A DNA stretch of 64,000 nucleotides, from contig NZ_REFA01000008.1 in the NCBI RefSeq assembly GCF_003852705.1, positions 1 through 64,000 of the forward strand. The letters are read 5' to 3'. The notes beneath the pieces were generated by a model. It saw only the letters and a list, made by a program, of their open reading frames with translations. It did not search any database and was not told the DNA's origin. The stretch comes from Amniculibacterium aquaticum. GTDB taxonomy: Bacteria; Bacteroidota; Bacteroidia; Flavobacteriales; Weeksellaceae. The translations under genes and the position numbers were made by a program. Below, one piece after another: positions 1,780 to 3,153 of this stretch; position 1 is the first letter of the stretch, and every line of letters begins with the position of its first letter.

Positions 1780-1805
1780 AAGCACCTACATTGCTGTAAG
1801 TGCTT
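1780..1805 (-). terminator. Intrinsic terminator after the tRNA/GIY-YIG array
   Basis: Ten-base stem AAGCACCTAC / GTAAGTGCTT with one mismatch and a 6-base loop. On the minus strand it is followed by a run of T (A-run at 1776-1780). It follows the last tRNA fragment and differs from the three hairpins inside the array, so it may be the original terminator of the ancestral tRNA gene. Confidence 0.7.
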
Positions 1806-1818
1806 AATTCAAAAAGTG

Positions 1819-1900
1819 TGGTCCTCCCGAAAGTATTCGGGATAAATTTGGCTCGAACCAGGGACCACCAGTCCCGATAGCTATCGGGAGAGTCAGGTGC
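1819..1900 (-). pseudogene. tRNA 3' fragment with palindrome insertions, copy 1
   Basis: Matches the intact tRNA at 3040-3113 in three blocks: GCACCTGACTC (anticodon stem, 1890-1900), the variable and T-arm block ending TTCGAGCC, and the terminal GGACCA. The anticodon loop segment is replaced by the perfect palindrome CCCGATAGCTATCGGG (1873-1888). The T-stem 3' side is replaced by a hairpin TCCCGAA/TTCGGGA (1825-1842). The acceptor 5' strand and D-arm are absent, so it cannot make a tRNA. It overlaps the last codons of the adjacent GIY-YIG gene. Confidence 0.85.
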
Positions 1901-2189
1901 AAGCATATTTTTGTTTTAGTTTCTCTGAGATTTCAGGGAATTTTTTAAGATTTTCAATATAAGTTCGACTTTTCATTTTTTTGATATGTTGCTCAATGGA
2001 AATAGCTTGAACATTACAATCACATTTAATAAAGAAATAAACCACCCAATCATTAGTAATTTTGGTATAGGATTGATTATAGAACCCTAGACGGTGTTTT
2101 TTCAAACGATTGTCCAAAGAATCTTGGGTAAATCCGATATAAAATTTATCCAAACATTTAGAATACAATATATAACAAATTGAGTCCAT
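1893..2189 (-). CDS. GIY-YIG nuclease family protein, copy 1
   Basis: 98 residues covering a compact GIY-YIG domain: the CYILYS strand (GIY position), FYIGF (YIG position), NRLKKH with the catalytic-type Arg, and a Glu in SIEQHIKK. The size matches the small stand-alone YhbQ/UvrC-N-like nucleases. The last two codons and the stop are contributed by tRNA sequence (GCACCTGA). The start codon lies 2 nt after the T-run of a hairpin, leaving no ribosome binding site between them. It differs from copies 2 and 3 at four positions (K/R11, S/A40, Q/K67, F/Y83 approximately). Target and function are unknown; a role in copying the element into tRNA genes is inference. Confidence 0.75.
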   Translation of the reverse strand: MDSICYILYSKCLDKFYIGFTQDSLDNRLKKHRLGFYNQSYTKITNDWVVYFFIKCDCNVQAISIEQHIKKMKSRTYIENLKKFPEISEKLKQKYACT

Positions 2190-2191
2190 AC

Positions 2192-2223
2192 AAAAAAAGC
2201 CTTAACCAAAAATGTTAAGGCTT
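2192..2223 (-). terminator. Hairpin with T-run between tRNA fragment and GIY-YIG copy 1
   Basis: Perfect 10-bp stem AAGCCTTAAC / GTTAAGGCTT with a 7-base loop, followed on the minus strand by seven T residues and then, 2 nt later, the ATG of the nuclease gene. It has the form of an intrinsic terminator for the tRNA upstream and would also limit transcription into the nuclease gene. Confidence 0.75.
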
Positions 2224-2225
2224 TG

Positions 2226-2307
2226 TGGTCCTCCCGAAAGTATTCGGGATAAATTTGGCTCGAACCAGGGACCACCAGTCCCGATAGCTATCGGGAGAGT
2301 CAGGTGC
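2226..2307 (-). pseudogene. tRNA 3' fragment with palindrome insertions, copy 2
   Basis: Same layout as the fragment at 1819-1900, with the same two palindrome replacements at the same positions: CCCGATAGCTATCGGG in the anticodon loop and the TCCCGAA/TTCGGGA hairpin in the T-arm. The palindromes were therefore in place before the units multiplied. Confidence 0.85.
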
Positions 2308-2596
2308 AAGCATATTTTTGTTTTAGTTTCTCTGAGATTTCAGGGTATTTTTTTAGATTTTCAATATAAGTTCGACTTTTCATTTTTTTGATATGTTTTT
2401 CAATGGAAATAGCTTGAACATTACAATCACATTTAATAAAAAAATAAACCACCCAATCATTAGTAATTTTGGTATAGGCTTGATTATAGAATCCTAGACG
2501 GTGTTTTTTCAAACGATTGTCCAAAGAATCTTGGGTAAATCCGATATAAAATTTATCCAAACATCTAGAATACAATATATAACAAATTGAGTCCAT
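2300..2596 (-). CDS. GIY-YIG nuclease family protein, copy 2
   Basis: 98 residues, identical in protein sequence to copy 3. CYILYS, FYIGF, NRLKKH and SIEKHIKK mark the GIY-YIG fold. The stop codon is read from the tRNA-derived GCACCTGA. It is preceded by the hairpin at 2599-2630. Near identity to copy 3 means recent duplication or gene conversion. Confidence 0.75.
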   Translation of the reverse strand: MDSICYILYSRCLDKFYIGFTQDSLDNRLKKHRLGFYNQAYTKITNDWVVYFFIKCDCNVQAISIEKHIKKMKSRTYIENLKKYPEISEKLKQKYACT

Positions 2597-2598
2597 AC

Positions 2599-2630
2599 AA
2601 AAAAAGCCTTAACCAAAAATGTTAAGGCTT
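2599..2630 (-). terminator. Hairpin with T-run between tRNA fragment and GIY-YIG copy 2
   Basis: Second copy of the AAGCCTTAAC / GTTAAGGCTT stem, with seven T on the minus strand ending 2 nt before the nuclease start codon. Confidence 0.75.
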
Positions 2631-2632
2631 TG

Positions 2633-2714
2633 TGGTCCTCCCGAAAGTATTCGGGATAAATTTGGCTCGAACCAGGGACCACCAGTCCCGATAGCTATCG
2701 GGAGAGTCAGGTGC
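2633..2714 (-). pseudogene. tRNA 3' fragment with palindrome insertions, copy 3
   Basis: Third copy, same blocks and same palindromes as at 1819-1900. It lacks the 5' half of a tRNA. Confidence 0.85.
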
Positions 2715-3003
2715 AAGCATATTTTTGTTTTAGTTTCTCTGAGATTTCAGGGTATTTTTTTAGATTTTCAATATAAGTTCGACTTTTCATTTTTTTGATA
2801 TGTTTTTCAATGGAAATAGCTTGAACATTACAATCACATTTAATAAAAAAATAAACCACCCAATCATTAGTAATTTTGGTATAGGCTTGATTATAGAATC
2901 CTAGACGGTGTTTTTTCAAACGATTGTCCAAAGAATCTTGGGTAAATCCGATATAAAATTTATCCAAACATCTAGAATACAATATATAACAAATTGAGTC
3001 CAT
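2707..3003 (-). CDS. GIY-YIG nuclease family protein, copy 3 (next to the tRNA)
   Basis: 98 residues, same protein as copy 2. It follows the intact tRNA by 36 nt, and that gap is filled by a terminator-like hairpin. If the hairpin works as a terminator, the gene is expressed only by read-through from the tRNA promoter or from a promoter I cannot see. GIY-YIG domains cut DNA with one conserved Glu and a YIG Tyr, and both are present. Housekeeping repair (UvrC, YhbQ) versus a selfish nuclease cannot be told apart from sequence alone; the linkage to tRNA favours selfish. Confidence 0.75.
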   Translation of the reverse strand: MDSICYILYSRCLDKFYIGFTQDSLDNRLKKHRLGFYNQAYTKITNDWVVYFFIKCDCNVQAISIEKHIKKMKSRTYIENLKKYPEISEKLKQKYACT

Positions 3004-3005
3004 AC

Positions 3006-3037
3006 AAAAAAAGCCTTAACCAAAAATGTTAAGGCTT
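3006..3037 (-). terminator. Terminator of the intact tRNA
   Basis: AAGCCTTAAC / GTTAAGGCTT stem, 7-base loop, seven T on the minus strand. It starts 3 nt after the tRNA 3' end and finishes 2 nt before the start codon of the nearest GIY-YIG gene. Confidence 0.8.
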
Positions 3038-3039
3038 TG

Positions 3040-3113
3040 TGGTCCCACCTGGGCTCGAACCAGGGACCACCTGATTATGAGTCAGGTGCTCTAACCAACT
3101 GAGCTATAGGACC
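3040..3113 (-). tRNA. tRNA with CAT anticodon (Met or Ile2)
   Basis: 74 nt fold into a complete cloverleaf: acceptor GGTCCTA / TGGGACC, a D-arm with AGCTCAGTTGGTTAGAGC, anticodon stem CCTGA/TCAGG around loop CTCATAA, and T-arm CCTGGTTCGAGCCCAGG. The discriminator base is A and CCA is not encoded. The anticodon CAT fits either elongator Met or the lysidine-modified Ile2, and I cannot decide between them. It is the parent of the three fragments downstream. Confidence 0.9.
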
Positions 3114-3145
3114 TCGAAAACAAGTTGTTTCCGTTGATTGGTGTG

Positions 3146-3153
3146 CAAAAATA
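3146..3153 (-). promoter_or_regulatory. Bacteroidota -7 box for the tRNA
   Basis: TATTTTTG on the minus strand (TAnnTTTG consensus) lies 33 nt upstream of the tRNA 5' end. Confidence 0.6.

Follow-up and report, generated by a model that had tools for sequence, protein, structure and literature searches.

Tandem GIY-YIG nuclease genes and displaced tRNA halves beside tRNA-Met of Amniculibacterium aquaticum, with relatives at other tRNA genes of Bacteroidota

The array beside tRNA-Met

The 64-kb stretch of the Amniculibacterium aquaticum genome considered here (the window; contig NZ_REFA01000008.1) carries on its minus strand an intact tRNA-Met followed by three head-to-tail units (3038-2632, 2631-2225 and 2224-1818) of exactly 407 bp each, and every unit consists of a terminator hairpin, a 98-codon gene for a GIY-YIG nuclease and a displaced 3' part of tRNA-Met (Table 1). 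Tandem Repeats Finder (TRF) returned this as the single array in the 64 kb, with a period of 407, 3.0 copies, 99% matches and a score of 2402, and no second tandem array. The tRNA prediction (ARAGORN), TRF and the open reading frame (ORF) calls bear out a preliminary description of the locus, in which an intact CAT-anticodon tRNA was followed by three 407-bp units of nuclease gene and tRNA fragment. They agree with it also in that the nuclease genes end inside tRNA sequence (the ORFs terminate in ..TGCACCTGA, which is tRNA sequence) and in that the intact tRNA is in phase with the repeat, which holds for its acceptor end and the terminator 3' of it. Units 1 and 2 are identical in DNA, whereas unit 3 differs from them at 8 of 407 positions, all within the ORF, with four amino-acid changes as the result; the identical pair and the diverged third copy had been recognized before, but the pair is made up of the two units closest to the tRNA. 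A genome search found only one full-length copy of tRNA-Met(CAT) (100% over 75 nt, the next best match being 89% over part of the length). The assembly consists of 74 contigs and may have miscounted identical repeats, so that the number of units could differ from three; the same kind of array is present in the single-contig genomes G065, G147, G160, G542 and G607 (genomes, contigs and loci are given below by G, C and L numbers).

Table 1. Features of the tRNA-Met locus (window coordinates).
Feature	Position	Strand	Basis
Intact tRNA-Met, anticodon CAT, elongator	3039..3113	-	ARAGORN
Unit 1 terminator hairpin, AAAGCCTTAAC-N7-GTTAAGGCTTT and T-run, directly 3' of intact tRNA	3010..3038	-	terminator scan
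Unit 1 GIY-YIG nuclease gene, 98 aa, stop codon within tRNA sequence	2707..3003	-	ORF, PF01541
Unit 1 displaced tRNA-Met 3' part, tRNA positions 25-75, two palindromes inside	2632..2714	-	alignment to intact tRNA
Unit 1 palindrome TCCCGATAGCTATCGGGA, replaces most of tRNA 36-42 (anticodon loop)	2686..2703	.	pattern search
Unit 1 second palindrome TCCCGAATACTTTCGGGA, at tRNA 63-68	2639..2656	.	sequence and alignment
Unit 2 terminator hairpin	2603..2631	-	terminator scan
Unit 2 GIY-YIG nuclease gene, identical to unit 1	2300..2596	-	ORF, unit comparison
Unit 2 displaced tRNA-Met 3' part; palindromes 2279-2296, 2232-2249	2225..2307	-	alignment
Unit 3 terminator hairpin	2196..2224	-	terminator scan
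Unit 3 GIY-YIG nuclease gene, protein 96% identical	1893..2189	-	ORF, unit comparison
Unit 3 displaced tRNA-Met 3' part; palindromes 1872-1889, 1825-1842	1818..1900	-	alignment
Distal terminator AAGCACTTACAGCAATGTAGGTGCTT	1780..1805	-	terminator scan

In place of positions 36-42 and 63-68 the displaced tRNA copy has two 18-bp palindromes; positions 25-35, 43-62 and 69-75 are retained. What had been taken for a simple tRNA fragment is thus indeed tRNA-derived, but the two palindromes that break it had been overlooked. The first of them, TCCCGATAGCTATCGGGA, occurs 3 times in the window against 0.01 expected by chance and has no mismatch-free occurrence in the genome outside the array; within this genome the palindrome is confined to the array and to one related unit on contig C15.

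The nuclease reading frame opens with an ATG directly after the T-run of the unit hairpin. Its product matches the Pfam GIY-YIG family PF01541 (E 1e-9, 39 bits against a cut-off of 22.6), the catalytic residues Y6, Y17, R28, H32 and E66 are unchanged across 13 diverse relatives, and AlphaFold predicts one confident GIY-YIG domain with C-terminal helices (predicted local distance difference test 92). The nearest solved folds are UPF0213 (1zg2), Slx1 (6sei), HIGLE and I-TevI, with modest scores throughout (Foldseek probability 1.00 but E not below 1e-3). By profile match, catalytic residues and predicted fold the window protein belongs to the GIY-YIG nuclease superfamily, and its active-site residues are intact. 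The pooled ratio of nonsynonymous to synonymous polymorphism within arrays (pN/pS) is 0.31, so that most copies have been under purifying selection; truncated copies do exist in some arrays. PADLOC returned no match for the nuclease as a defence gene, and a defence-gene reading was rejected on that ground.

Relatives, empty sites and copy number

Relatives of the nuclease were found in 145 of the 320 genomes of the window's family, many of them as head-to-tail arrays. About 90 of these family loci were read, chosen by protein similarity only, and an intact same-strand tRNA lies upstream of 72 of the 84 first units, mostly 40-62 nt away. The tRNAs adjoined in the family are Arg-TCT, Asp-GTC, Asn-GTT, elongator Met, initiator Met, Ala-GGC, Val and Phe. 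In the family nuclease tree the sequences found at any one tRNA type form a single group, so that nine labels need 8 changes, which is the minimum, against a shuffled mean of 24.5; the elongator-Met group has weak support (64), and the cases with no tRNA, at contig ends, group inside the tRNA-type clades. Several types can share a genome, each at its own tRNA (Asn and Arg in G147, Met and Arg in G191). These data indicate that, within the family, the nuclease clade matches the tRNA isoacceptor. YhbQ-like proteins encoded in the same genomes (L124, L126) adjoin no tRNA and stand far apart on the tree, at a distance of about 4 substitutions per site; as the window protein falls outside them and is tRNA-linked, a UPF0213/YhbQ housekeeping role was rejected.

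Beyond the family, a scan of named genomes gave 80 loci, likewise picked by protein similarity only, at 41-58% identity, from Flavobacteriaceae, Cyclobacteriaceae, Chitinophagaceae, Saprospiraceae, Sphingobacteriaceae, Salinivirgaceae and Bacteroidales. An intact same-strand tRNA adjoins 61 of the 78 loci whose gene is complete (44 upstream, 17 downstream), a recognizable tRNA fragment adjoins 15, and 2 have neither. A search across the phylum matched 245 of 395 genomes and 124 of 171 genera, with a tRNA upstream at 27 of the 29 loci read and arrays that include six units at 381 bp and five at 315 bp. The tRNA labels remain clustered on the phylum tree (18-20 changes against 37 when shuffled), with several switches among Asn, Met, Leu and Phe, and the clade follows the tRNA across genera and across families, vertical inheritance being possible at some loci. 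Searches of 50,697 phage records, of viral contigs and of PHROGs gave no relative of the window protein, and a phage origin was rejected on these results.

Both congeners, G001 and G002, have the orthologous tRNA-Met with its neighbouring gene and no nuclease, where the window genome (G000) is occupied, and all 27 further orthologous tRNA-Met loci that were read are empty as well. The number of units changes between loci that are otherwise nearly the same: one in L025 (G200) against two in L088 (G198), at 95-96% identical DNA, and one in L085 against two in L084, at 94% identity. Flanking DNA is common to different species at many Arg-type loci. Empty sites and copy-number variation were what the preliminary description had proposed to look for, and the outcomes that it had named as contrary to its proposal, an ancient single-copy neighbour or clustering with YhbQ proteins unlinked to tRNAs, did not occur. 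Intact tRNAs are amplified at some of the loci: at L103, tRNA-Val(GAC) is repeated within each unit, along with the nuclease, and at L112 four tRNA-Asp copies stand ahead of the array.

The hairpin that had been assigned to each unit is present in all three as a terminator, but the distal hairpin at the far end of the array differs from these. The empty tRNA-Met of G002 (L039) bears a near-identical terminator of the unit type, and the distal type also stands 3' of tRNA-Met in other genera (L043, L049, L050, L054, L058, L062, L064) and after the displaced copies in L009 and L031. The distal terminator is probably the older terminator of this tRNA locus, since displaced. The order of insertion cannot be taken as proved by the terminators, because the empty site of G002 has the unit type and the other genera the distal type, and is suggestive only. 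Among close relatives the terminator and the DNA immediately 3' of the orthologous tRNA-Met differ strongly (L038-L066), which suggests that this side of tRNA-Met is a hot spot for several kinds of insertion.

Palindromes in the displaced tRNA copies

Where the intact tRNA lies upstream of the nuclease gene, the displaced copy is the 3' part of the tRNA, and where it lies downstream, the displaced copy is the 5' part. At nearly all alignable loci one interval of this copy is a palindrome and the remainder closely matches the intact neighbour, and the interval replaced is specific to the nuclease group. In the Arg group the palindrome covers tRNA 30-42 in 45 of 45 alignable first units, 34 of them having exactly 30-42; in the Asp group it stands at 39-50 in 7 of 7 loci (one extended, 35-50); in the Asn group of the family it always spans 26-35, within 21-41, in 5 of 5 loci; and in the Ala group it lies at 28/29-43/44. 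Loci with a downstream tRNA have it in the D-loop at 15-17 in 9 of 15 cases, across Asn and Phe tRNAs. Since neither the Asp nor the Asn interval corresponds to a natural tRNA hairpin, the replacement is not the exchange of one tRNA arm for another.

The palindrome also follows the nuclease group in its sequence (TCCCGAT in Arg/Val, TCTCGTC in Asp, TCCCGAA in Asn/Ala). Its core CCGA..TCGG is nearly invariant while the outer pairs vary on both sides, and the stem covaries, with 19 double-changed cells and a score of 0.414 against 0.156 when shuffled (0/500). That the palindromes are kept palindromic in this way suggests that the dyad or hairpin has a function.

The palindrome is not exclusive to the element. 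It is dispersed in G254 and G275, away from nucleases and tRNAs, and at four loci of G254 (L219, L220, L221, L222) the same palindrome, TCCCGATA..TATCGGGA, is part of a longer dispersed repeat that has neither tRNA nor nuclease in its vicinity. Palindrome units without an ORF stand in tandem at L079, L021 and L071, at G037:C4:34715-35119 and at G017:C1:501097-501445, with periods of about 103-176 bp; at the loci read they are palindrome-broken tRNA-Arg copies, and they look as if amplified in trans.

Further observations concern the proteins and their surroundings. The C termini of many such proteins are translated tRNA (L014, L074, L116), with ..KIEHPDL derived from tRNA-Arg plus palindrome and ..LAQLVRVPNFRD from tRNA-Asn, and such C termini could serve to find these genes in protein databases. 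The second, divergent unit of the window genome (C15 2030-2450; L005) encodes a short GIY-YIG protein and terminates in an almost complete tRNA-Val copy, which is interrupted by TCCCGATTAAACATCGGGA and by a second hairpin in the T-arm; as the upstream tRNA-Val is reduced to a 3' stub, this unit seems to have lost its intact tRNA. Two other GIY-YIG genes of the genome, in frames of 597 aa (probably UvrC) and 272 aa, have no tRNA nearby. Where the contig begins, next to the array's distal end, 113-1601 on the minus strand holds two pieces, split around 1007-1082, that resemble a disrupted type IIG restriction-modification gene, with matches to MmeI_N (E 2e-22) and to a helicase C domain.

A proposed homing element of tRNA genes and its rivals

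SegB of T-even phages is a free-standing GIY-YIG homing endonuclease that cuts inside tRNA genes, preferably at the motif RAWTSGAAC; the tandem amplification of a tRNA-segB segment, in which a tRNA 5' region is joined to the segB 3' region, depends on this activity (PMC13096335). By our reading, the motif is the T-loop seen on the other strand. In T4, segB lies between tRNA-Arg and tRNA-Ile. The units described here resemble this system in having a GIY-YIG gene among tRNA genes and tandem tRNA-nuclease segments joined at the tRNA and the nuclease 3' end, and segmental amplification of the SegB kind is seen both in the 407-bp units of the window and in the 315-381-bp units of G607 and G542. As expected of a free-standing homing gene, the nuclease lies beside its presumed target in G000 and is missing from that target in the two congeners. 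As the units are joined comparably to SegB segments, we judge it somewhat more probable than its contrary that they represent a SegB-like free-standing homing element, specialized on tRNA genes, that carries half a tRNA and amplifies in tandem, its cleavage and mobility being what we infer from these arrangements.

In such a cycle the nuclease would cut, at a clade-specific position, the gene for a single tRNA isoacceptor; the nuclease gene would then enter that tRNA gene through repair of the break from an element-bearing copy. The element would bring the missing tRNA half together with a terminator, one complete tRNA would thereby always be present, and the host would survive. The displaced half would stay on the far side of the nuclease gene, with a palindrome at the clade-specific interval, where it may both remove the cut site and break the homology that would let recombination delete the element; the palindrome would most simply be the altered cut site of the displaced copy, which also breaks up homology. 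Repeated breaks, with recombination between tRNA sequence and the tRNA-derived nuclease 3' end, could then give head-to-tail arrays, as experiments have demonstrated for phage SegB.

Several points weigh against such a homing element, for which cleavage and movement are themselves supposed. The main difficulty is that the intact tRNA of the occupied locus is identical to the empty-site tRNA and should remain cleavable: the displaced copy of the occupied allele is altered at the clade-specific interval, while the intact tRNA there is not. The tRNA sequence alone thus gives no immunity, and self-cutting must be weak or depend on the flanks. For the Met locus, no pair of an empty and an occupied site was found in which both flanks are conserved. 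Vertical inheritance at a single locus could account for part of the agreement between clade and tRNA, and on the phylum tree the labels do need 18-20 changes, though shuffles need 37. SegB has no detectable sequence similarity to the window protein (BLASTP E 0.32, hhalign probability 0.6), which places the latter outside demonstrable SegB-family homology, and it has a second half that the window protein lacks. Finally, the conserved core CCGA..TCGG exceeds what a mere scar would need. The idea of the preliminary description, a selfish nuclease that carries part of its tRNA target, accordingly stands as far as empty sites, copy-number variation, the match of clade and isoacceptor, a patchy distribution over the phylum and the lack of clustering with YhbQ bear it out; it had missed the palindromes, which are the most regular feature, no clean before/after insertion pair with both flanks conserved was found for this locus, and cutting and movement are conjectural.

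A bolder version, which we regard as possible but doubtful, is that these are phylum-wide minimal mobile elements of about 0.3-0.5 kb with a single-domain nuclease, residing in tRNA genes, each lineage on one isoacceptor, and moving by means of the conserved palindrome in the half tRNA. The palindrome would then be a working recombination or cleavage site, and the whole a first transposition-like mechanism that combines a GIY-YIG enzyme, a palindrome and a carried half tRNA.

Rather unlikely, in our estimate, is that the palindrome and not the intact tRNA is the nuclease substrate. The CCGA..TCGG dyad of the displaced half would be cut as duplex, cruciform or single-strand hairpin, and the freed end, with its tRNA homology, would copy the unit into tRNA genes or lengthen the array, a GIY-YIG counterpart of REP/RAYT (repetitive extragenic palindromes and their associated tyrosine transposases). 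The invariant core with covarying outer pairs and the tracking of nuclease group by palindrome sequence agree with this, as do the tandem multiplication of ORF-less palindrome units, like non-autonomous copies (L021, L071, L079), and the presence among the structural neighbours of Slx1, which acts on branched DNA; the dispersal of the palindrome away from nucleases and tRNAs in some relatives does not, and the clade-fixed replaced interval is left unexplained by the model itself.

It is improbable that the arrays are ordinary tandem duplications, in which an old, non-mobile and vertically inherited nuclease gene beside tRNAs underwent RecA-dependent unequal crossing over and left tRNA fragments as passive by-products. 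Identical 407-bp repeats would recombine in any genome, and the flanks shared between species at many Arg-type loci fit vertical descent, but the fact that many different tRNAs are adjoined, each by a nuclease clade of its own, the nuclease-free tRNA-Met in both congeners and 27 other genomes, and an exact, clade-specific palindrome replacement with covariation all speak against it. We give a little less credence still to a host-useful device of tRNA dosage or repair, which would amplify tRNA genes and so help cells to resist toxins that cut tRNA, or phage defences, in the way that SegB helps T6 against Septu: the amplified tRNA-Asp and tRNA-Val(GAC) genes of L112 and L103 would suit it, but most arrays, the window's included, have one intact tRNA and extra copies that are palindrome-broken. 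An assembly artefact or chance is scarcely credible, since the draft state of the genome and its identical repeats are countered by the same architecture in the five complete genomes named above, and the TRF result excludes chance.

Compared with known systems, the proposed homing element differs from SegB in being chromosomal and of 98 aa, where SegB is phage-borne and of 221 aa; no palindrome-broken half tRNA is reported for SegB, which is also reported to lack a tRNA isotype preference, whereas here clade and isoacceptor match. UPF0213/YhbQ and Slx1 are the closest solved folds, from which the tRNA linkage sets it apart (the YhbQ-like genes have none). Integrase islands and tycheposons are integrative elements in tRNA 3' ends; they too carry a replacement tRNA part, keep the tRNA functional and leave a displaced fragment, but here there is no integrase, the unit is 0.4 kb with one nuclease, and the displaced part is palindrome-broken and at some loci a 5' half. 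REP/RAYT and bacterial interspersed mosaic elements (BIME) likewise link short conserved palindromes with a small enzyme that processes DNA, and likewise have copies in tandem and copies without an ORF; the enzyme here is GIY-YIG and not a Y1 transposase, and the palindromes lie inside tRNA halves at fixed positions.

Searches of open-licence papers turned up no account of the chromosomal element, though one in a subscription journal could have been missed. It looks like an undescribed selfish element, which we place among the free-standing homing endonuclease elements, with a real chance that the palindrome sets it apart as a kind of its own. If this is true, more than half of the sampled Bacteroidota genomes (245 of 395) would bear a hidden parasite of an essential gene class, of which annotation shows only stray 'GIY-YIG' proteins whose C termini are really translated tRNA. 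The element would be a chromosomal, isoacceptor-specific counterpart of phage SegB, it would account for tandem and broken tRNA copies in Bacteroidota, and it would make available from nature many compact nucleases together with their matching tRNA targets, in which homing site choice and host sparing could be studied.

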